From assembly GCF_964355755.1 (NCBI RefSeq), contig NC_092671.1, forward strand, positions 15,356,501-15,420,500: a stretch of DNA of 64,000 nucleotides, written 5' to 3'. This document shows, in pieces, positions 3,401-34,195 of this stretch. This DNA comes from Antedon mediterranea (Eukaryota > Echinodermata > Crinoidea > Comatulida > Antedonidae). How positions within the stretch are numbered: position 1 is the stretch's first letter; each line of letters begins with the position of its first letter. The position numbers and the translations under genes are program-made. The notes under the pieces are model-generated. The model ran no database searches. It saw nothing but the letters and a program-made list of their open reading frames with translations, and was not told where the DNA came from.

Positions 3401-6047
3401 AAATCCCCATATTTTTTAAGTCTGGAATTGATAAAATTCTGTTATTAAAGAAGTTGCCAAAATCAAATGTTGTTTCAGGTAAAAAAGATCGAATGATGCA
3501 TCCAACGATACAGGAGATGAAATATTATCTGACAGAACTTTGCGGAGGCCCATCCTATCTACGGACAAATGTTCTAACACCTTACCATTATTGTATACGT
3601 AAGTAGACATCTTAATTGGGGGCCAAAATTGACTACTTATTGATGAAGAATCTGTATTGGTTTCCCCCATTGCTTGGACTGACGTACAAACGTGCAGGAC
3701 TAGCAATGGAATGACCCATCAACCATGTAAAAAAAAAAAAATCCAAATCAAGTGAAGACATTTAACTTTAAACATTATTCTTTCCAACACGATAAAAAGA
3801 AAAAGAGACGAGGAATAAAAGAAAAAAAGATAAGGAATGAAAGAAAAAAAGATAAGGAATGAAAGAAAAAGAGATGAGGAATGAAAGAAAAAAAGATGAG
3901 GAATGAAAGAAAAAAAGATAAGGAATGAAGGAAAAAAAGATGAGGAATGAAGGAAAAAAGGATGAGGAATGAAAGAAAAAGAGATGAGGAATGAAAGAAA
4001 AAGAGATGAGGAATGAAAGAAAAAAAGATAAGGAATGAAAGAAAAAAAGATAAGGAATGAAAGAAAAAAAGATGAGGAATGAAAGAAAAAAAGATAAGGA
4101 ATGAAGGAAAAAAAGATGAGGAATGAAAGAAAAAAAGATGAGGAATGAAAGAAAAAAAGATGAGGAATGAAAGAAAAAAAGATAAGGAATGAAGGAAAAA
4201 GAGATGAGGAATGAAAGAAAAAAAGATGAGGAATGAAAGAAAAAAAGATGAGGAATGAAAGAAAAAAAGATGAGGAATGAAGGAAAAAAAGATGAGGAAT
4301 GAAAGAAAAAAAGATAAGGAATGAAGGAAAAAAAGATGAGGAATGAAAGAAAAAAAGATGAGGAATGAAAGAAAAAAAGTAGTAAGTAAACTTGAGACAA
4401 GGAATGACATAGAAGAAAAGGGCTTGCCATCCTTGTGTTCAATAAATCATGACATACATCATAAGAAGATGCTACTTACACTTAAACTGTGCTTTAATAC
4501 CTTTGTCACCAGCAACCATCCAACCTTTAATTGGCGAGTTGCTCGCTGTTGGATGCATATAAAAAAAATAATAGTGAACTTTGTACTCTGACTCACAATG
4601 GAAGATGAAATTGATATATTTCACAGAAAGTTGCATTTTAGGCATTAGTTGATACCTTCTTTGTCTAGATTCTGATATCCCAGAACAATGAGCACTATCG
4701 GAACTCAAGAGACTAGTGGGACGGCCCAGAACCACCTGGATAAAAACTAGAGGATGATACAAAAAGAAAAATAAGTCTATGCATGCTGTGGCCAATAATC
4801 GCTCTGATTGGAGAAGACTTGTTAAGTGCGCTATGATGGAAGATGTTTGTGATGATGATGTACTCTAATTAAATTATTGGATGCAACCTGAAGTTATTCA
4901 CAGCTATACATACGTTGTTAAAGCCTGATCTAATTCTTTCTTTCTATTTGCTGAGGAAAATTATTATAAAAAAAAACAAAATCTGCTTTATGATTTATTT
5001 ATTTCTTATTGACATTTCTATATTTAAACTTGTATTGTACAATTACAATATTTCACATTCCAAAATATATTCTTTCAGATTTTGAATGTTTGCTAGATAC
5101 AGATGGTAGAATACTACACAGTGCTGACTATGGCAGTATACTGAATAAAAGCAACAATGTAACGATTGGAACATCCCATTCTCCAAAATGGGGGGTTAGT
5201 GTTAAACAATTGCCACAAGGTGCACAAAGGCAAGTGAAAATTTGTTTAAAAATAATCTCCAGTTGCATGCCTTACACTTTAAACACATAATTGATTTCTT
5301 GTTTTTCTGTTCAGGGTTGCTATTGACTTCTTGTTCCCCAGTCAGTTCTGTTTGAAGTCTCAACATCGTAAAGCTAACTCTACTGTCAAAAAACACAATC
5401 TAGAGTTACTTGGTTATAAAGTTATTCAGGTAAGATACTCCATACAGTCCTCCCTACACACAGAACAGATTGTAGTGTTTATGTATTATTGTTTCTGTAG
5501 TATGTGTGCACGCGACATTTCTGCTGAATGTATTCAAGTTTGGGGATAGGCTGTCCAGATTATAAACGGTTCTGAAATTCTCGTCTTTATTTGGAATATA
5601 TAATAATAAAAGCATGCGAGTTATAGCACACATACATTACACAGATTAAAGGTTGTACAGTAATTGTACAGTGTACTGTTTTATTAATAATAATAATACT
5701 GCTTTTTTGCATTATGAAGAAAAAACATCAAAGTAAAAGAAATGAAAAGTTTGAGTGAGTTTTTAAAGCTCCCTTTTCCCTAAATTGTTTTTTCTGTTAA
5801 TTAATAGATTCCCTTTTATGAGTGGAATTCAAAGGAATTGTTTGAAGTTGAAGATCGATTAAGCTATTTACAGCAACTTCTGTTCTCCGACTGTAAACCT
5901 GTGGTCAAAGATCGCATGGATGCTGAGATACAGCAAGGAGGAGGCGAGGAAGAGGATTTAAGTGTACCACACCAGTCACTATCTACAGATGCTTTAAATG
6001 ATGTTCGAGTGTTGAAAGTTCTTAATAATATTGATAAATGGTCATGA
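417..6047 (+). CDS. FASTKD1: FAST kinase domain-containing protein 1 (FASTKD1), mitochondrial RNA-binding factor
   Basis: Exons 417-2517, 2798-2926, 3479-3598, 5079-5229, 5315-5429, 5808-6047; 951 residues with every splice phase closing. The 700-residue first exon holds the helical repeat region; the FAST-type stretch follows (NRSVVLQCPQYNIPWFH, about residues 712-728), then LTPYHYC and FECLLD blocks, and a C-terminal RAP domain from about residue 834 to 903 (VAIDFLFP, KKHNLELLGYKVIQ, EWNSKELF). Human FASTKD1 shares this order and its LTPYYHKVDFECILD and HLEILGYRVIQ blocks, so I place it with FASTKD1 rather than FASTKD2/3/5. Known family role: mitochondrial mRNA stability in the matrix. The N-terminus is basic and Ser/Leu-rich, as for a targeting peptide. 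Intron 4 (5230-5314) uses a GC donor (GCAAGT). It is about 100 residues longer than the human protein, mostly N-terminal. The start is the first in-frame ATG after a candidate acceptor. Confidence 0.9.
3785..4379. repeat. 22-bp polypurine minisatellite in FASTKD1 intron 3
   Basis: About 27 tandem copies of a 22-base unit (AAAGAAAAAAAGATGAGGAA plus two bases), with variants GATAAG, GAAGG and GAAAAAGAG. The + strand is almost entirely purine. Because 22 is not a multiple of 3, all three minus-strand frames stay open for more than 200 codons with a 22-residue Phe/Ser-rich repeat; these are artefacts, not genes. Confidence 0.95.
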
Positions 6048-6089
6048 GAGATCACTCTGGATTGAACAATAGCCTATTTGACTTATACT

Positions 6090-6210
6090 CTTTCTACACT
6101 CAAATATGGTAGTGATATGCTTAAATATGACAGTGATATGACATCATCATGTTCATTATGGGCAAACCACATTTGTTGTCACATAGAGTTTGATAGTGTA
6201 GACAGAGCTT
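6090..6210. mobile_element. MITE family A, copy 1 (partial left end)
   Basis: Carries the family hallmarks: AAATATGGTAGTGATATG blocks, a GACATCATCATGT core, and a right end TTTGATAGTGTAGACAGAGC. The left inverted repeat is degraded (TTTCTACACT only). Confidence 0.75.
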
Positions 6211-6571
6211 GAGAGGCCAATAGAAGCATGGTTTTTAGAAATTGATGTAAAAATATATTATAAGTAGAATGTGTTGGTACAATAATATAATTTATAAAGG
6301 ATGTTCTTATTTCAACACAATTTAAAATTATAACATCATATTGTATGCAATTTAAATAACTTCTAAATGCAATATTGAAATTTATTTTTAAAAAGGTATG
6401 GATTGAAACAATCCATTTTCTATTGTAAAATAAACAATCAAATAATTGGTAAATGTTTGAATTTACTTTATTATGTGATAGATGGATATGAGCTACAGTG
6501 ATGAACTTGTTATGCTAACCATCTTTGTGAACATCAGACTACGACGAATTTCGGTCATTACCTTTGACGTA

Positions 6572-6737
6572 CAGTCAACTCTCCCAATTCCGGACACCTT
6601 ACTTTGAGCTGCCCAAACATGTCAGTTTTTCCAGAAAGTTTGGTGTTTTTAATGGTAAAAATGAATTTGGGATGGATTAGATTGTTTTGACTCAAAGAAT
6701 ATTTGTTGAGTTTTCGTTTTCATTGGGAGAGTGGACT
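6572..6737. mobile_element. Small MITE with AGTCAACTCTCCCAAT ends
   Basis: Left end AGTCAACTCTCCCAATTC and right end ATTGGGAGAGTGGACT are inverted repeats with one mismatch over 16 bases, about 165 bp apart. No coding content. Confidence 0.6.
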
Positions 6738-7519
6738 TTATTTTTCTTGGCATCATGCCTGGCAGCCGCCAATGCTGTGTTGTCGACTTCATCATGCGAT
6801 ATCCATGTTTTTAGAAATGTTACTTACTATATGATGGGGTAGTCTGACAGATCTGATCAATTAAAGCATGCTTCCATTTTTGCTGCAGATTTACCAAAAC
6901 CCCTTGAGTACATCCAAGTGTAGCAATATGTAAGTAATAATATCAAAGGTAGTCTTCACATTAACAAATATCCAACAAGCCTTCAATTTATTTTTCTCAA
7001 GTATTTATTTGTTATCAACACTCTTATTATAGAACGGTGTACATTGTGGAATAGCGTTAATTATTGTCCCAGGTGATACTATGGCTAACCACATATTACA
7101 AAGGTGAAAACAAACCAAACTTTATAACACACAGGACTGTTTGGTCTATCAAATTATAGTATTTGCAATACTTATGATGGAAGAGTTTACAAATTGTGAG
7201 TTGTTTGAATAGAGTTGTATGCAAATATCAAAGTGATTTTTTGCAAGCATGGTTCAGAGACATTTGATTCACCAGGAATTTCCGACAATTACAATTCATA
7301 ATAATTAGTTTCACAATCATTGTGAAAAATTTCAATTGTATAAAGAGATTTATTATTGTCTATAATAAGTATTTTATTTATAAGATACAACAGGATATTA
7401 ATTCAAATTCTTTCCATAAATCTATTATCTGCATTTTAAACTGGCATTCTCGTGGAGATTGCAGCTCTAATGAAAACAGCCTTAACACTCTGGTATATTT
7501 CAAACTATTTATACACAAT

Positions 7520-20800: not shown

Positions 20801-23800
20801 GCAATTCGCCTAAATATATAAACAAAATAATCTAACATTGTGCCACCAGTGTAGACACAGTTCCAAACCCTGACTTTGCAAACAAGTTTCTCAAATATTA
20901 ATTTATTATCTATCAAATATAGAAAGTATTGAATAGAAAACGTAGATTAGTGTGTGACTTACATCAACACCGACCGGCTCATCAAGCGAGATACCAAAAT
21001 CTATTTCTCCATCACCCCAATCAATCTAAAAAAAAGAGAGATATAAAGGATGGAATGGAATTATTTCTCCATCTTTAAAAATTCATAGTAACTTGTATTT
21101 TTCTTAATTTTCTGGCATTTATTTTTATGTTACATTGTATAACGAATCATCCAAGTTAATTAATATACCTCGTCTTCCTGAATATCTTTTTCTTCATCAG
21201 GCGCTATCAATTTAACCTCTTCTATTGATTTTGGTTCCTCACCTGTCCTCCAGCGATATACTGTAGTGTTACCATGCTGTAGCATGTAACGTAATGTTGG
21301 GCAGATAGGAAACTTATCTACCGCACCACTCTCCTGACTAAAATGAAACAGAATTAAAACTTGAATGTATGTCTGGTCTGGTTATCTGGTGAATCCAGTT
21401 TTAGCAAGGCTAACAACAGGACACTAAGCCCGACTTGCCAAGATAGGCTATCGTAATAGACTTTGAATGGAAAGGGTTTTGAATCAAATCAAGGCTATCA
21501 ATAAGTGTACAGATTATGCATGGTACCATTTTGCTAAACATGGAGGAAGCCAATTGTACAATCAAAATTCAGTCAAGTGTTTAGAGGGTGGAAACTGACC
21601 AAGTCGCAACTAGGGGTAAAACCTTTGATCTGGAGCTTATCATCCTGTTGTGTGATTTCCTTGGTTTTAGGAATAATATAAAAATATTGAGAAAATTGAA
21701 TTTTATGAGAATTGTTAATACTAAATGATGAAATCAAATCAGAATTCAGAATTAAGTATTATTAAATAGAATAAAATGTAAAAATTACTTTTCAACTGTA
21801 AATTGAACAAATGCCTCATAAAATTCAGAGACCTTGTCCAGCTTTTTTGTCTTTGACAGGATTTTATCATAGATGAGTGGTAAATCTGATACAAGTTGTG
21901 TTAGCTCAGTTTTAATTTTTTCTCCCTGAAATAAGAAAAAAACAGAAAATAAATTAGATCTTTAAAAATTGACTTTTCTTTTATTCCACAGTGGCCGTAT
22001 TCACCATTCACACTTAGACTGAGGGATACACTTACCCTTAAAATAAAAAAAAACCTCCTATCTAAGTGAATACAATTTAAGAGAGATACTTAAATATATA
22101 TTGAGGTAAGTGAAATACTTGATATTTAAGGGAAATGATTGGTGAATATGGCCACTGATTGCTAAGTTAATTTGTTTCTAACCTTGATTCCAAGCTTGTT
22201 ACATGAGGACTTGAAGTCATCTTTAGCTGATGATGCTTGGCTTAGATAATCCTTCTCTTTTCTATCACATTCCTATAAAATAAAATACATAAATAAATAA
22301 ATAAATGTGTAGCTCTTATTTTATATATTTTAGTTCTCAATACTAATTTACATCTGAAATTACAACTTGATTATTTCTAGCTTAATTTAGTTTACTAAAT
22401 AAATAATTTTTCCCCAATTATAGTAGTTGTCACGAACTCCTCTCACGTATGTTTCCGAGCGGTTGAAAATACTTTAGGAACTCCCTTGTGACATAAAAAA
22501 GTATACACACAAAATCCACAAAGTTGTAAAATAACTCAAAAACAAAGCTTTAATTTCAATCAACTTCAACTTTTAACAATCCAGTAAGCACTTTAAACAA
22601 CAGCTTTACAATGACTTTACAATATAACATCCAACCTCTAATCCAACCTCTAATCCAACAACCTTCTTCAAAATAAATGCTTCAATCAAAATCCTTCTCT
22701 CCCTTACAATTGTCATACTTCCCCTTATATACAATATGTTCATAACCTTCTAGATCATTCCTTATACTTCTCATTATTACATGATTACAGTTTCTATTAA
22801 TAGCACTTCTGGAATGTTCTTGATTGTTCTTATTAATTATACATGGTTTCTTAAATCAAAACATCTTATTCTAGAATGTTCATGTAAATACTATGTTACT
22901 CTATATGTTAGGGAATGGTAATTTATTACACTCCCCCCTCTTTCTGAGCTCAAAACTCTTTCTTGGAGTTTTGAGGGGCAAGTATACACGGACGTGTCAA
23001 AACTTAACCCACTCCTAGTCTATAAAACCTAATTACGCCATAATAACATACAACATAATCATTAATAATTACTAATAATGAACAAACAATATTCGTGTAA
23101 ATTTGTCGGAATGGTTCACTAACAATTACTGACATAGGAATCATAAAATCCTTAAATTTAGTTTTATACTTTGAAGTTTTCTGACAAATCTCACAAGTGT
23201 TGCAATATTCAGTCACATCCTTTCTAATACCAGGCCAAAAGAATCTCTGCTTTATCCTATCTAATGTCTTTTCCTACCTAAATGACCTGCCAAAGGAATA
23301 TCATGTGAGACTTTCAATACACTATTACGGCAAGGGTATGGAACTACTAATTGGTCTATTGGTTCTGTCTGGTGTTTAGTGAAAACCTGCCTAAATAAAA
23401 TTCCATCCTTACAGACTATCTTTATAGTGTCATCATCCTTCTGTACTAACATCTGTTCTCGAAGTGAAATTAAAGTTCTATCCTTAACCTGATAATCCTT
23501 AATTTTATCTCTGCCAATATCTAAAATGTCTAATTCACTATCTTGGCTAGATTGAGCTTCCTTTGTTTTTGCAAACTCTTTCCTAACTTTTCGTTTCTCA
23601 CTTCTGGTTTTATGAACTTTTTCCTTGGGAGGGTTGTTACTGAGTAGTTGGCCATCTAAATGTCCAAATTCTTCTTGAAAATTAACCACATCATCTAACT
23701 GATGTGAAATAACCCCAGAAGCTTTTTCCGACTTTAATTCGTTTTCCTCTCTTAGTTTTTCTTTTCTAGCATGATCTCTAGTGGCAACAAAACTATGCCT

Positions 23801-26800
23801 ATCATGATTCTTATCCCCCTTCCCTAATAAGTCTCCAAATTTAGGAAAGTCCCTACCAAGAATTACATCTCTTGGTAAATCGCTGCAAACGCCAACCAAC
23901 AAATTATGGTCTTCGTTATTAACCTTAATATTGACGAATGCAGTAGGATAGGCTTGGACATGGTCATGGACGCACCTGCATGTAATTTTAGCTTGCTTCG
24001 CGCGATTAATTTTCTTAGCCGCTACTAAATCAGAATGAACAAGTGTCATATCACATCCAGAGTCTATCAAAATTTCACAATCACATCCTTCAACTAGGCC
24101 TCTACAAACGTAAGGTGTACATGGTTTTGAAACAGTATCTGTCTTTGTCGACAAAAAGCCATCCTTACTTCGACAAAATCGTTCTATGTGGCCTACTTTT
24201 TTGCACCGTCTACAAACGAGAGGTTGTCTAGCGTCAGATTGTGATTTATGAAAGTTATCAGGGGGATTATTATTACCCTTACTGTCAACTTCAGGAGTGC
24301 CTTTCACTGTTTTCTCCTGGTTGTTTCTATGTTCGTGTTTTCTATTTTGAAACTTTTTCTCAAAATCGATACCTTTTCTAGCTTGAAAATAATTATCTGC
24401 TAATTCTGCAGCATTTAATCCAGAATCTGGTTTATGTTCTCTAACCCAAATTTGTACCCCTGTGGGCATAATATCTATTAATTGCTCTAAAATAACAATT
24501 TCAGCTAAATCATCTTTGCTTTTATCAGCAGGCCTAGCCCACTTAGTAAATAAATCTTTTAACCTAACATACATTTCTCTATAACTTTCTTCACTTTTCT
24601 TTTTAATTGACCTAAACCTTTGTCTATATGTCTCTTCAGTTATGTCATACCTTTGTAATATTGCTTTCTTCACTATGTCATACTGGTTACTTTCTGTCAC
24701 TGGTAATGATGCATAGGCTGCTTTTGCTTTGCCTGTCAAATGTGGTATCAGTTTTACTACCCAGTGTTCTTTTCGCCACTCATAGGTGTTAGCAATTCGT
24801 TCAAACGTAGTGAGATAATTTTCAATATCATCACTATCAGAAAGCTTTGCAATCTGAACTTCCTTCAATCTCATTATGTCTTTTAATCGTTTCTCCTCAC
24901 TGTCCTTTTGCTTATCCATTAACGCCATTACTAATGCTTGCTGTTTCTCCATATCTTCCCTACGTAAACGTTCTTGTCTTTCCATATCTTCTTTGCGTAA
25001 ACGTTCTTGTTGTTCCATCATCTGCTGCATCATAAGATTCTGTTGTTGCATTTGCTGCTGCATTTGCTGCTGCATTTGCTGCTGCATCAACAACAAAACA
25101 TCTTTTGAAGATGAGTCAGCCCCTGTAGGGTTATGTCCACTGGTTGGTCCAGACTCTTCTGCCTGTTGTTCAGGTTGTATTGACTGAACCGATTCTACCT
25201 CAGAATCAGATTCATCGCCGCCGCTGTATTCTCTACCGGATCTTGTTGTTGATTGTTTATCAGCCATATTTTAAATCTGGATGAGGGTCTTGTTACTAGT
25301 TAATCGTAGTTACCGAGACGTTCACAAGTCTACTGTTCCAAATAAAATAATCTACTGTTCTTTAAACAATGTTTGTGTACTTACGATTAAACAAAACGTA
25401 GCACCACGGCTTCCGTAAAATATCACAGTATCGTAAGTACCGCTTCCTCAAAATATCAATAAAGTACAGTTGATCCTAAAACAGCCACCAATCTATGGCA
25501 AAATACAGTAGATCAAACTGCTACCACAAAATATCACAACAGTAGATAAATACACAGTTAAGTCGAACAGTAGATCGAAATAACCGCTGCCACCAAATTA
25601 TGTCACAAACTCCTCTCACGTATGTTTCCGAGCGGTTGAAAATACTTTAGGAACTCCCTTGTGACATAAAAAAGTATACACACAAAATCCACAAAGTTGT
25701 AAAATAACTCAAAAACAAAGCTTTAATTTCAATCAACTTCAACTTTTAACAATCCAGTAAGCACTTTAAACAACAGCTTTACAATGACTTTACAATATAA
25801 CATCCAACCTCTAATCCAACCTCTAATCCAACAACCTTCTTCAAAATAAATGCTTCAATCAAAATCCTTCTCTCCCTTACAATTGTCATACTTCCCCTTA
25901 TATACAATATGTTCATAACCTTCTAGATCATTCCTTATACTTCTCATTATTACATGATTACAGTTTCTATTAATAGCACTTCTGGAATGTTCTTGATTGT
26001 TCTTATTAATTATACATGGTTTCTTAAATCAAAACATCTTATTCTAGAATGTTCATGTAAATACTATGTTACTCTATATGTTAGGGAATGGTAATTTATT
26101 ACAGTAGTAAAGATATTTTTGTTTAATAAAAAACATTATGCTTGTTTCCTGTTCAATATCTGCACATTTCCACACTGTAAAGCTCTGTCTACACTATCAA
26201 ACTAGTTTGACAAAAAAAGTGTGATGTGCACAAATATGATAGTGATATACCCAAATATGGTAGTGATATGACATCATCATGTCCATATATGGGCACATCA
26301 CATTTGTCACATATATTTTGATAGTGTGGACAGAGCTTTTAAAATACATACCGTTTGTAGTTGTTTACATTTGAATATAGCTTTTTTAAGTGCAGGAATC
26401 TCATAATTGACATTCTGAGACAGAAGATGAGCCGATTCTGCAAGGCATAGATTATCCTGTTCATATATTGATACAATTTCCTGCCAATCCTATAAAAAAC
26501 ATAACATAACATTCATTATATAAAATCATGCATTCAATATTCATCAGATTTTAAAGCCTTTGGAAATAATTATGCGAGAATTTACAATTTTTTCCAAAAA
26601 TGGATATTATCACATAATTGATGATAGGTAGGAAGGACTAATACAACACAAATAACTATACATTGTGCATACTTTGATTAAAAAGTGTGATGTGCCCAAA
26701 TATGGTAGTGATATGCTCAAATATGGTAGTGATATGCTCAAATATGGTAGTGATATGACATCATCATGTCCATATATGGGCACATCACTTAAACATAAAA

Positions 26801-28037
26801 TTTGATAGTGTAGACAGGGCTTAAATCTTGTTTAAGGGTTATGTAGCGAAGTAGAAACAGTCATGAATTACAACCAGTAATGAACAGCTGTGGACTTTGC
26901 ATGCATGTTAACCACCAAGCTACTTTTTACCTTCATGCGTTGTGAGGAGTAACGTCCAAATATGTTCTTTGTGTTAGATTCTGATACTTTCAATAATTCA
27001 ACAATCTTTTTACAATGGAAATAATTAATATCTAGAAAAAATTAAAAGAAAAAAAATCAGTCTAAAAGATGTTCATTTTGTGTTTTTTTAAATTCCATAT
27101 GCATCCAACAGCGAGTAACTTGCCAATTACAGTATGGATAAACTATTTAAAAATTATAATTTTTTTATAATATAAACTAAGTCTCACTTTAGGTCCACAG
27201 GGAGTGGAGTTGGAAGAGCAGTGAGACACTAGGTCAGGAATGAACCCTGGAAACAACCACAGGACATGTAGATCTAGAAGGTTACCATTCTACTGGGCTT
27301 CGTATCAATTTTTATTTTATCACAATCTGGGCTTATTTATTGTATATTATTTGAAAATTAGGTTGTGACAATAATTCTGTATTAAAGCTCTGTCTACCCT
27401 ATCAAACTTTATGTGACAACAAAATGTGATGTGCCCATATTATGGACATGTCATATTACTACCATATTTGGGCACATCACACTTTTTTTTTCCAACTAGT
27501 TTGATAGTGTAGACAGAGCTTAAGAATACTTGCATGTTCCAACTACTAGCTGTTTGATCTCATCAACTTCTGGCATATCTTGAATCGCATGATTAATCTT
27601 CTGACGAACAGACAGCGCCACCGAAGTCCATTTAGGTTGAACATGTCTACGATCAATCAGCCAATCTAAATAAAATAAATAAAATGGAAATTTATAAACT
27701 CTTGCAGGAAAGTAAATAAATAAAAATGAAATAAGAATACATTAATATCATATTTATTATTTTTGAATTTCTGTCTCTTTCAATCCACATTTGTGATAGC
27801 TTTCGCATTTACTCCAGTTCCATACTTTGCCTAGGCTTTGATGCCATTCATGTTTGCTGTTATATTATTTCGGTTGTGTACATTTTTATCTTTTTCTAAA
27901 TTTATATTTTATAACGAGACAATCCAAAAGGATTAATTTAAGAAAATGTTAATAATATTAATATAAAATATACACTTACCAAGAAGCTTATTCGATGAAA
28001 TATCAATAGGAAGGTTATCTGCACTTGAGTCAGACAT
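17817..28037 (-). CDS. CDK5RAP3: CDK5 regulatory subunit-associated protein 3 (CDK5RAP3 / C53 / LZAP)
   Basis: Twelve exons (minus): 28037-27980, 27665-27534, 27031-26931, 26489-26352, 22272-22183, 21925-21789, 21337-21169, 21025-20963, 20255-20100, 18946-18741, 18523-18352, 17891-17817; 498 residues (human 506), all phases closing. Diagnostic blocks: PIDISSNKLLDWLIDRRH at the N-terminus, TKNIFGRYSSQRMKDWQEI, NVNYEIPALKK, the acidic linker with two IDWG motifs and one IDFG (exons 8-9), DALTLLDNLETRN, SVNQFQ, RYVDRL, LEPKLDILMAKTRELK and C-terminal KNRPVNLMG. IDWG motifs in the human protein bind UFM1 and ATG8-type modifiers; the protein is the substrate adaptor of the UFL1-DDRGK1 UFMylation ligase at the ER and acts in ER-phagy. 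Intron 2 has a GC donor (ACAT/GCAAGT). Intron 4 carries an LTR retrotransposon; intron 8 a 49-bp tandem array. Confidence 0.96.
18016..18122. mobile_element. Short palindromic MITE in CDK5RAP3 intron 11
   Basis: TTGATATAAAGTTTG(A/C)GGTACAC and its inverse lie at the two ends of a 106-bp stretch with the loop GAATTATATATACTG-like sequence. It would fold into a near-complete hairpin. It lies between the last two exons of CDK5RAP3. Confidence 0.65.
19270..19880 (+). mobile_element. Repeat copy split by a truncated LINE 3' end
   Basis: The flanks (TGTAATTGTATTGCTATATG... before 19385 and TTATTGCGCACCGTGAAAAG... after 19785) match 42.1-42.3 kb, where they are nearly contiguous. Between them sits a LINE 3' piece: an ORF with LDTYNTRSKD and a 3' end AATAAAG followed by (ATT)n at about 19765-19787. 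The LINE landed inside an older repeat. Confidence 0.65.
20276..20815 (+). repeat. tRNA-derived SINE with its A-box region amplified 8-fold (49-bp tandem array)
   Basis: Eight copies of a 49-bp unit (GGAGAGGAGTTGTGGCTTAG, then TGGTTATGATGCTTGGCTAC, then CAAT(T/C)CAAT) run from about 20276 to 20680. TGGCTTAGTGGTTATGATGC resembles a tRNA box A; only the last copy continues into GGTCCTGGGTTCAGGTAC, a box B-like segment, and a 120-bp body. Units alternate CCAATTC/CCAATCC, giving a 98-bp higher-order period. In CDK5RAP3 intron 8, starting about 20 bp from the exon 9 acceptor. Confidence 0.8.
21989..22156. mobile_element. MITE with GTGGCCGTATTCACCATTCA ends
   Basis: Inverted ends GTGGCCGTATTCACCATTCA and ATTGGTGAATATGGCCAC about 165 bp apart, with a second internal inverted block (CTTACCCTTAAAAT). 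A half copy lies at 63304-63377. CDK5RAP3 intron 5. Confidence 0.7.
22428..22930 (-). repeat. 3' LTR of Gmr1-like element
   Basis: 503 bp, TG...CA in both orientations, matching 25601-26103 except at position 22434 (G versus A). Confidence 0.93.
22931..22943 (-). other. Polypurine tract of the LTR element
   Basis: Reads AAAGAGGGGGGAG on the minus strand directly before the 3' LTR, the expected site for plus-strand DNA priming. Confidence 0.85.
22990..23262 (-). pseudogene. Integrase N-terminal fragment of the Gmr1-like element, frame-broken
   Basis: In a frame shifted by one base relative to the upstream ORF, the minus strand encodes the H2C2 zinc-binding motif region of a Ty3/Gypsy integrase (His in the preceding frame near 23270; CNTCEIC near 23195) and the start of the linker to the catalytic core (SEPF). 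The catalytic DDE core, RT and RNase H are absent: coding potential stops near 23000, 60 bp before the polypurine tract. The shift lies in an AAAA run near 23266 and looks like a lost base rather than a designed frameshift. Confidence 0.8.
23261..25267 (-). CDS. Gag-protease polyprotein of Gmr1-like retrotransposon
   Basis: A 668-residue intact ORF. Residues 50-130 are a Gln/Met/Arg-rich coiled coil (MQQQMQQQ repeats). Residues about 140-310 are the capsid region related to the SCAN fold (YLTTFERIA, LIPHLTGKAKAAYASL, YRQRFRSIKK, IWVREHKP). A CCHC zinc knuckle (CRRCKKVGHIERFC) lies near residue 355, and a retropepsin-like domain with the catalytic triad DSG (ILIDSGCDMTLVHSDL) near 405, plus the VILGRDF block. 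The C-terminal part is the linker that precedes integrase (DIPLAGHLG). The start ATG lies about 330 bases inside the 5' LTR boundary. Its intact length fits the very low LTR divergence. Confidence 0.9.
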   Translation of the reverse strand: MADKQSTTRSGREYSGGDESDSEVESVQSIQPEQQAEESGPTSGHNPTGADSSSKDVLLLMQQQMQQQMQQQMQQQNLMMQQMMEQQERLRKEDMERQERLRREDMEKQQALVMALMDKQKDSEEKRLKDIMRLKEVQIAKLSDSDDIENYLTTFERIANTYEWRKEHWVVKLIPHLTGKAKAAYASLPVTESNQYDIVKKAILQRYDITEETYRQRFRSIKKKSEESYREMYVRLKDLFTKWARPADKSKDDLAEIVILEQLIDIMPTGVQIWVREHKPDSGLNAAELADNYFQARKGIDFEKKFQNRKHEHRNNQEKTVKGTPEVDSKGNNNPPDNFHKSQSDARQPLVCRRCKKVGHIERFCRSKDGFLSTKTDTVSKPCTPYVCRGLVEGCDCEILIDSGCDMTLVHSDLVAAKKINRAKQAKITCRCVHDHVQAYPTAFVNIKVNNEDHNLLVGVCSDLPRDVILGRDFPKFGDLLGKGDKNHDRHSFVATRDHARKEKLREENELKSEKASGVISHQLDDVVNFQEEFGHLDGQLLSNNPPKEKVHKTRSEKRKVRKEFAKTKEAQSSQDSELDILDIGRDKIKDYQVKDRTLISLREQMLVQKDDDTIKIVCKDGILFRQVFTKHQTEPIDQLVVPYPCRNSVLKVSHDIPLAGHLGRKRH
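25583..25595 (-). other. Primer-binding site matching tRNA-Leu 3' end
   Basis: The + strand reads ACCGCTGCCACCA, the 3' end (with CCA) of animal tRNA-Leu species whose acceptor stem ends CGCTGCCA. On the element's minus strand this is the complementary PBS, 5 bp inside the 5' LTR. Confidence 0.8.
25601..26103 (-). repeat. 5' LTR of Gmr1-like element
   Basis: 503 bp copy of the 22428-22930 LTR; near identity indicates recent insertion. Confidence 0.93.
26180..26340. mobile_element. MITE family A, copy 4
   Basis: AGCTCTGTCTACACTATCAA at the left and TTTGATAGTGTGGACAGAGC at the right; core GACATCATCATGTCCATATA. CDK5RAP3 intron 4, 70 bp beyond the LTR element and about 12 bp from the exon 4 donor. 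Confidence 0.85.
26675..26822. mobile_element. MITE family A, copy 5 with internal triplication
   Basis: The 18-bp block AAATATGGTAGTGATATG is present three times in a row (about 26698-26753). The right end is TTTGATAGTGTAGACAGGGC; the left inverted repeat is missing. CDK5RAP3 intron 3. Confidence 0.8.
27383..27522. mobile_element. MITE family A, copy 6, abutting a GC splice donor
   Basis: TTAAAGCTCTGTCTACCC at left, AGTGTAGACAGAGCTTAA at right. The right edge is 11 bp from the GCAAGT donor of CDK5RAP3 exon 2 (27533). Confidence 0.85.
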
Positions 28038-28652
28038 TGTTGTGTGTCAACTTGCTACATAGGCTGGTATGGAATAATATACATCAATCAATCAATTATT
28101 GTATTTTAGTATTTACTAGGCCTACTACTGGAATAAACTTTAAACTTAATAAATAGTAATATAATAATACTACTTGTTCCTGCAAAAAGCACAATTGTTG
28201 GTAGTAGTGTACAAAAGGGAAGTGTAAAGTAAAGTGGTTTAAAATAAAAACATTGAAAAAAGTGACTACCCTGGTAATAAAAATTTAAATGTCAAAAAAT
28301 GTAGGGCGAAACGACCTCAACCAAAGCCAACATGCTTCTGCTCAGATATGTGATCCTTCCATTTTGGTTAACCAGGCTACAAACAGAGAGAGGCCTCCTA
28401 CTATAAGTACTACTAGCCTAGCATGTTATAGTAAATGTAATACTGTCAGTGCAATAAACACTACTTTGGGTTACTACTAAAAGGTGCTACATGTACATTG
28501 AATAAATACTGAATATATGTTGAAAATACTAAATGAAGTACAACTAACCCGTTTAAAAATCTGAGGAAATCTGTGCCATATGTTGTTCACCAATATGGTG
28601 TACGTGACGACGAACGAGAGATGTCTTCTTATCGTACATAATACGATTATGA
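28038..28652. other. CDK5RAP3 5' flank
   Basis: Region upstream of the CDK5RAP3 start. No coding exon recognised; a short ORF at 28289-28480 has no family features. The start site of the mRNA is not determinable by eye. Confidence 0.4.
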
Positions 28653-29534
28653 ATGTTATGCGCGATTTGAACGATTTGCGCAATTTGAAATTGCGCAAAA
28701 AAAATCCTTGCGCAATTTGAATTGAAACATGTGTTTCAAATTGCGCAAGCAACGTATTAAATTGCGCAAGTAATCTGCAAATTGCGCAAGGTTTTTCGAC
28801 AGATTGTGAAATCATGCACACCCATATTTTTATAGTAATTTCTAAGAATGATTCAAAATTAAAGATAAATATCGCATTTCCTTATTTTAGTAGTGCAAAT
28901 ATTGTTATAAGTTAGCATACCGTCGAAGAACCGACGAAGGAAAACGAAGCGGTGGTGTTCCACCAGGCGGGCGCGGCGCGGGCGGCCGGCTATACTACTC
29001 TAGCCTAGCTAGGGTCTGGACTACTGATACTGACTAGGTTACATGGCCTAGCTTAAACTAATATTAAAAACTTAATTTTTACATTTATTTTGATTTATTT
29101 CAAGTTACAGTGATAATATTATTTAATTGTAATAATAAATGTTATGTATTTATTATACACATGTTATCTTCGCATTTATTATGTTTTATTTTGAGTTATT
29201 TAGTTTCCAATAAATTATTATAATACCGATTGTCTGGTAGAATTTTGTTGCGCAATTTGAAAATTTACAGTTCGTTTTCAAATTGCGCAAAGGTGTCATA
29301 TTGCGCAAGAACTATCTTGCGCAATTTACAAATTGTGCAGCGCAATTTAAAATTGCGCAAAGATTTTCTTGCGCAATTTGAAATTGCGCAAGTTGATTGC
29401 GCAATTTGAAATTGCGCAAAAAAATCCTTGCGCAATTTTAAATTGCGCAAGAATTCTTTGCGCAATTTCAAATTGCGCAAGGATTTTTTTGCGCAATTTC
29501 AAATTGCGCAAATCGTTCAAATCGCGCATAACAT
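28653..29534. mobile_element. Foldback element with arrays of TTGCGCAA palindromes
   Basis: The ends are inverted copies for about 70 bp: ATGTTATGCGCGATTTGAAC at 28653 and its inverse ending at 29534. Both ends, and the DNA just inside them, consist of TTGCGCAA palindromes separated by ATTTCAAA/ATTTGAAA and AAAATCC spacers: 6 in the left arm (to about 28795) and 15 in the right arm (29250-29520). The ORFs that cross it (RNFKLRK, FAQFQIAQ repeats) are translations of the palindrome and are not genes. The middle (28800-29250) is unique, with a short GC-rich patch at 28960-28995. Confidence 0.75.
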
Positions 29535-30378
29535 GAATATTCATTTGATAAAGAACTGGAAAGAGAATTTCAGCAGCAGTGTACGTTGGTCGCGAGTCAT
29601 GTCATGGACCTAATTTTATGCCTCCATGTTCACAGTATTTTTATACCTCCATGTTCACAGTAGGCTTAAATCAATTAAGCTACTGCAATAACTAGATAAT
29701 AGCCAATTATTTACATTTAATGAAAATCATTGATCATTTATAAAATAATGAAAAGCTATTTCATACCAGTAACGTTTTAATTAATTAATTTATTTACTAA
29801 AAGTAAAAACGAGGAAAAACACATTATACCATGGAGTAAAGACTTTACTCCATGATTATACTGAAATATAAATATTATGGATTTGTTGTTCGGCCTTATA
29901 TTCATTATTTCAATTTTAAATGGATAATTAATTTAATGACAAAATTATATATAATGAAAATTAATAGACTCCTAGGCTAGTTAGGCCTAGTGAGTAGAAG
30001 GGCTTCCGACCCAATACATCGTGGCGTGAACATGAACATGCATGACTTTGATGTTTTTTGTGAAAAAGTTTTATCAATGGTCTAAAACGTCTCCAACTCA
30101 GCTCCTCCTACGTAGTTTCAGATTTATAGATATGATGTTTAACATACTTACAAATATTTAGGCCTAACTTAAACTTGCATTAAAAAATTGGGTATTTTAA
30201 TTATATTGAACAATAATTAATTAGTACCTACCAGGCTACCGATGCTCTGCTATTGTTTGTTTCATAAACTTAACCGCCGGACGTAAATAAGTAAATAAGC
30301 TTCCAATTGTAAGAAGCTTGTACACAGAGCGAATTTGTCATTCTACCAAGGTAAAATTACAAAATAGGTTCTCCCTGT
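29535..30378. other. AT-rich intergenic stretch
   Basis: Nothing recognisable beyond a short duplicated phrase (TACCTCCATGTTCACAGTA-like, about 29620-29665) and a few CTAG-rich words near 29970. Confidence 0.4.
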
Positions 30379-33654: not shown

Positions 33655-34195
33655 ACAAGCAGGCGGTCCGAGTTCGAGTCTCGATTGGGGCGACTTTTTC
33701 TCATTTTCACAGATTTCCTCATCTTTATCGTTTCAAATTAAATAAATAATAAAATTAAATTTCAGTATATCACCGGGCGGTTTCGAATTAATGTTCATTG
33801 CCTAATGTGTTTATATATATAAAAGTATCTCGGAGATCCCGCCTCGTGAATAAAAATACTGAAAGATGAGGGCGTATCAATTTGATCTCTGGTGCGCGTG
33901 CGTACAACTGAGGACTAGTGCTGTTCCGCCGTACACCACGCCGAGAATGTTAGAGAGTCGCTAGCGCTATCCAATCGAGTTTGAACAATAGCATGAAAGC
34001 CTCAGTGGTCTAATGGTTAGTACATCTGCATATCAAGCAGGCGGTCTGAGTTCGAGTCTCGGTTGGGGCGACTTTTTCTCATTCTCACAGATTTCCTCAT
34101 CTTTATTGTTTCAAATTAATTAATTAAATTTCAGTATATCACCGGGCGGTTTCGAATTAATGTTCATTGCCTAATAGTATATATATATATACTAT
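33655..34195 (+). repeat. Dimeric tRNA-like repeat (SINE-type) with Pol III boxes and terminators
   Basis: The second unit (33988-34060) folds as a tRNA: acceptor GCCTCAG with TTGGGGC, A box TGGTCTAATGGTTAGTAC, anticodon stem TCTGC/GCAGG around loop ATATCAA, T arm CTGAG-TTCGAGT-CTCGG, then ACTTTTTCTC as a Pol III terminator. The A box and T arm resemble tRNA-Glu, but the anticodon position reads ATC, so it is not a working tRNA-Glu. The first unit (33657-33700) keeps only the 3' half. Each is followed by the same 3' tail with TTTCAGTATATCACCGGGCG and ends in (TA)n. A second locus of the same build lies at 17.4-17.8 kb. Confidence 0.7.

Follow-up and report, generated by a model that had tools for sequence, protein, structure and literature searches.

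A young, foldback-shaped family of non-autonomous transposons, probably of Ginger2 type, in the crinoid Antedon mediterranea

An element with palindromic arms upstream of CDK5RAP3

The window, which is the whole stretch of 64,000 nucleotides analyzed in this study, contains an element of 880 bp, assigned to subfamily A, located 616 bp upstream of the start codon of CDK5RAP3. The gene was confirmed by matches to Pfam PF05600 on two minus-strand exons (E 1.8e-13 and 7e-19), as an earlier note on this DNA had proposed for a neighbor about 600 bp away. The same note had placed the element at 28653-29534, which proved right to one base on each side, and its count of about 21 palindromes, six on the left and fifteen on the right, agrees with the exact counts. 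The features of the locus, in window coordinates, are as follows.

27980-28037, minus strand: first coding exon of CDK5RAP3 (MSDSSADNLPIDISSNKLL...), a neighbor outside the element, with the ATG at 28037
28650-28653: left target-site duplication (TSD) TGAA, in the site T-A-TGAA-T-A
28654-29533: complete element with outer ends TGTTATGCGCG...CGCGCATAACA; full-length, 98-100% identical copies elsewhere stop at these bases
28654-28724, plus strand: left terminal inverted repeat (TIR), about 71 bp, 97% complementary to the right end
28676-28789: left arm with 6 TTGCGCAA
28790-29247: core, non-coding, strongly different between subfamilies
29248-29511: right arm with 15 TTGCGCAA, mostly in 23-bp dyads TTGCGCAATTTSAAATTGCGCAA with a spacing of 15-16 bp
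29463-29533, minus strand: right TIR, pairing with the left end
29534-29537: right TSD TGAA, matching the left one

Both outer termini of the element are perfect, and the extent of the TIRs was taken from a blastn comparison of the element with itself, in which the pieces 1-71 and 810-880 are paired. All 21 occurrences of TTGCGCAA in the window are inside the element and its core is free of them, while 0.82 occurrences (sd 0.83) are expected in the window and none of 100 shuffles gets to 21. Neighboring octamers are mostly 15-16 bp apart, and the paired unit TTGCGCAATTTGAAATTGCGCAA, suspected before, is a real one. Folded as a single strand, the element reaches -242 kcal/mol against a mean of -114 for shuffled sequences (z -25). 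Its inverted arms with internal short repeats place it in the foldback structural class. No transposase-like open reading frame was present in the core (28790-29247) according to the ORF list, and the element as a whole is without coding capacity.

Two other features were observed elsewhere in the window. A retroelement remnant on the minus strand (23004-25270) carries a SCAN-domain gag (PF02023), an aspartyl protease and Integrase_H2C2 in adjacent ORFs. A tRNA-like gene at 33999-34070 was called Asp with the anticodon ATC, which is unusual for Asp, and is possibly a tRNA-derived repeat or a pseudogene.

Copies, subfamilies and target sites

The genome searched comprises 354 Mb in 18 contigs. 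Nearly all of the best 40 of 442 candidates for the element were full length, and the best copies are 99-100% identical to the window element and inserted in unrelated flanks. The 25-bp terminus occurs 622 times genome-wide in perfect form (159 + 118 + 113 + 232), corresponding to about 311 copies, and allowing up to two mismatches raises this number to 715 (355 + 360), corresponding to about 357 copies. The family thus has roughly 300-360 members, many of them near-identical, and the other copies have inverted ends as well, which is incompatible with a single-copy sequence. Copy number, defined termini and target-site duplications bear out the earlier description of a transposon-like foldback element.

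Subfamilies were read from a set of 30 distinct elements. Several members of the 880-bp subfamily are 99.8-100% identical to the window copy with unrelated flanks; besides them there are a subfamily of about 799 bp and older, more diverged copies. The copies range from 15 to 21 octamers and most of them from 740 to 881 bp, with the dominant 880-bp and approximately 799-bp forms stable in length. The family is young and its spread very recent.

Target-site duplications were scored in 98 two-ended copies paired on contigs C1-C3, where all perfect termini were listed. Identical 4-bp duplications flank 79 of the 98, and about nine of the other 19 have flanks that agree over a longer stretch, mostly 5 bp and in one case 7 bp, as read directly from the flanking letters. 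Identity in an 8-bp register was found in a single copy of the 98. The target consensus from 222 flanks is T-R-[YATR]-Y-A, with T at position -6 in 185, R at -5 in 199, Y at -4 in 168 and R at -1 in 175 of them. A copy at C2:24533 kb is inserted in the terminus-like sequence of another repeat family and flanked by GCGCA at either end, and rejoining of its flanks restores the uninterrupted site TTGCGCATAACA.

Several loci with unusual arrangements were also observed. The copies at G000:C9:17957506 and 17960409, and likewise those at C6:5733863 and 5734713, share the same flanking letters within each pair and are local duplications including the flank, not new insertions. At G000:C1:14174254-14194190 (L050, L051, L041), about 16 tandem units of approximately 1.15-1.2 kb each form an array whose end coincides exactly with a solitary right end of the element. 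Two facing TGTTATGCGCGATTT termini are about 340 bp apart at G000:C1:7466200-7466900 (L053), and their outer flanks are likewise inverted repeats of each other. At G000:C9:11568730-11570030 (L082), approximately 39-bp repeats form a long array, open in several frames, at a distance of about 110 bp from a TGTTATGCGCGATTT terminus.

Superfamily and role of the octamer arrays

Ginger2 elements were defined by Bao et al. by TGTNR termini, TIRs of 50-180 bp, 4-bp TSDs and the target RTATAY, with 5-bp TSDs in TDD-4 and TDD-5 (PMC2836005); a TSD of 4 or 5 bp is stated again for Ginger2/TDD in PMC10045372. All Ginger2 features legible from a non-autonomous copy were found in the present family. The element ends in TGTTA...TAACA, its TIRs of about 71 bp at 97% lie within the range of about 50-180 bp, its duplications are of 4 bp with the longer ones mostly of 5 bp, and its consensus T-R-YATR-Y-A agrees with the AT-rich RTATAY. 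Since these ends, duplications and targets make up the published Ginger2/TDD signature, a Ginger2-type reading is suggested. As no autonomous copy was found among the termini listed, this membership is a putative one read from termini and targets only. We regard it as moderately probable that the family consists of young non-autonomous, foldback-shaped (MITE-like) transposons mobilized in trans by an integrase-like DDE transposase, of the Ginger2/TDD kind, with the octamer dyads as its binding sites. The dyads of both arms would then act as repeated transposase-binding (synapsis) sites, and could have been multiplied by unit duplication since they give an element an advantage in the competition for transposase in trans. 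C/EBP-type binding, if any, would be incidental, and the copy near CDK5RAP3 one of about 300 insertions.

A comparison of the old subfamily C with subfamily A shows differences at 15 of 545 octamer positions (2.8%), 93 of 773 positions in the arm spacers (12%), 521 of 1489 in the core (35%) and 1 of 153 in the outermost 22 bp, although the octamers may look more conserved than they are if they anchored the alignment or if their units evolved in concert. The corresponding numbers for subfamily B are 3 of 1624 for octamers and 62 of 2261 for spacers. An alignment-free count gave 15-18 perfect octamers among 15-20 recognizable ones in the old copies. The octamers change far less than the spacers and do so along with the termini, which fits cis-acting transposase-binding sites. 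Comparable arrangements have been described: internal repeats of Galileo carry additional transposase-binding sites according to work cited in PMC4079207, and subterminal palindromes at the ends of piggyBac and piggyBat are bound by transposase dimers, though such palindromic sites can inhibit instead of help (PMC11707139). It is possible, if rather doubtful, that the arrays instead arose passively, through hairpin or replication slippage and gene conversion within the foldback arms, and have no binding function. The variable octamer number and length among copies conform to such an origin, whereas, within the same arms, divergence of the spacers exceeds that of the octamers about fourfold in old copies and about fifteenfold in subfamily B, and the two dominant forms keep their length.

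The source of the putative transposase was searched for among paired and unpaired termini. No autonomous copy or linked Ginger2 transposase, a DDE enzyme with an H2C2 zinc finger, was found among the termini listed, which cover C1-C3 and most of C4 and about two thirds of those genome-wide. The longest pairs of facing termini delimit, in the long copies examined, nested insertions or repeat fragments, and among variant termini without the first octamer no pair had the spacing of an autonomous element. Candidates for an autonomous partner were rejected for several reasons: a Gypsy retrotransposon interrupts the element at L052, L057 contains a nested 2.5-kb element that has inverted ends of its own, the inserts of L058-L061 lack a transposase ORF, and the right end at L077 abuts a non-LTR reverse-transcriptase ORF. 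Unpaired ends on C1-C4 are mostly ordinary copies with the second end mutated or missing, and the terminus at L055 sits in a different foldback family. The top rve (PF00665) matches examined, at two loci, are both Gypsy. The rva_4 domain (PF24764) has 77 matches in the genome, and neither of the two loci examined carries the termini of the element; L064 and L065 encode integrase-like transposases with Pfam rva_4, one with an ORF of 481 aa.

Mobilization by another integrase, either that of an LTR retrotransposon or of a superfamily with 4-bp TSDs such as Chapaev, Sola or Academ, is unlikely in our judgment. Gypsy-type LTR integrases also produce TG...CA ends and 4-5 bp duplications, and the loci examined yielded Gypsy for the rve domain and no Ginger2 transposase. 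A solo LTR, however, has no terminal inverted repeat beyond short TG...CA ends, whereas the element has one of 71 bp, and a target resembling RTATAY is what has been published for Ginger2 (PMC2836005). Ends, duplication, target and TIR length are common to the family, to Ginger2/TDD and to non-autonomous derivatives such as Ginger2-1N1_NV. Unlike those, the window element has arms with 21 dyad-symmetric octamers, a trait unmentioned in the cited Ginger2 descriptions, and no transposase was seen for the present family among the loci examined.

In FB, Galileo, Tetris and the sea-urchin TU elements, inverted arms also consist largely of short internal repeats in variable number and non-autonomous copies dominate, as in the present family; elements of this kind, non-autonomous and with internal repeats in their inverted ends, are already known. 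Galileo and Mutator-like foldbacks have TSDs longer than 4 bp, and those of TU elements are 8 bp. The present element differs from all three by its 4-bp duplication. Mutator-type foldbacks, hAT, P/Galileo and TU, with TSDs of 7-10 bp, were ruled out by the dominant 4-bp register, and piggyBac and Kolobok, with TTAA duplications, by the varied YATR-like 4-mers. To our knowledge the family has no earlier description, and a limited literature search found no paper on a Ginger2-type foldback. Galileo belongs to the P superfamily and most foldbacks are Mutator-like (PMC4079207, PMC3573991). The piggyBac and piggyBat ends share the subterminal palindromes (PMC11707139) and differ in having a TTAA target, few palindromes and another palindrome sequence. 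A second foldback family was encountered at G000:C4:12270563 and C2:35390932 (L084, L085), with inverted arms of approximately 16-bp tandem repeats (GGCCGAGTTGACTTGA), an interior with a degenerate TGTTATGCGC-like terminus and 534 first-look candidates.

Ginger2-type elements are little studied, and a family that is young, high in copy number and precise in its ends, with a clear target consensus and regular dyads, offers a good system for studying how an integrase-like transposase finds and pairs transposon ends.

The C/EBP consensus and the position near CDK5RAP3

The octamer TTGCGCAA had been recognized in the earlier note as a C/EBP palindrome, and it is indeed the reported C/EBP alpha/beta consensus, with a Kd of about 0.07 uM for C/EBP beta and 0.48 uM for C/EBP alpha (PMC10941009). 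The element's octamers share this core with C/EBP sites, and the likeness is one of motif only. In the genome, TTGCGCAA occurs 11,438 times, and the same octamer reversed as a control 3,269 times. Copies of the element bear 18.9 octamers on average, and 311-357 copies are accordingly estimated to supply 5,878-6,747 of the TTGCGCAA sites, or 51-59% of the genome total, and the potential for C/EBP-type binding would accordingly be large.

That binding of host C/EBP-type bZIP factors keeps the arrays in place, with the family providing enhancers or acting as a sponge for the factor, for example at CDK5RAP3, is nevertheless quite improbable. The identity of the octamer with the consensus (PMC10941009) and the family's share of 5,900-6,700 of the 11,438 sites, against 3,269 for the control, speak for it. 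Against this, locus-specific retention could not show itself in a family so young and uniform, the octamers are conserved jointly with the termini as cis-acting transposition sites would be, and the copy near CDK5RAP3 matches its unrelated sister copies in octamer number and almost entirely in sequence. Its 616-bp distance is unsurprising because about 311 near-identical copies with varied flanks exist. By our estimate, with some 25,000 genes assumed, about 20 of approximately 300 copies would fall within 1 kb upstream of a gene in 354 Mb. The position is at chance level for some 300 scattered copies and no sign of function. Among the three roles suggested earlier (enhancer, factor sponge, or an unusual terminal structure for the element's own mobility), the last appears the best supported.

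A bolder variant, to which we give equally little credence, is that the host's C/EBP-type bZIP protein is drawn to the element by its TTGCGCAA arrays, where it would serve synapsis or else expression and the opening of chromatin, and that the spread of the element may have rewired or titrated a stress-response network by placing about half of the genome's perfect sites. The family illustrates how the presumed cis-sites of a transposon can equal the consensus of a host factor and, within a very short time, make up half of the perfect sites of a genome, and it is a concrete start for testing transposon-driven regulatory change.

A plain satellite or a chance cluster of palindromes has practically no probability, since it is refuted by copies that are scattered over the genome, end precisely and have duplicated target sites, in spite of units recurring at 15-16 bp and the existence of other TTGCGCAA-bearing tandem arrays (C1:920068-938511). 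In that region of contig C1 (G000), TTGCGCAA occurs about every 1.5 kb, probably in another tandem array of long units.
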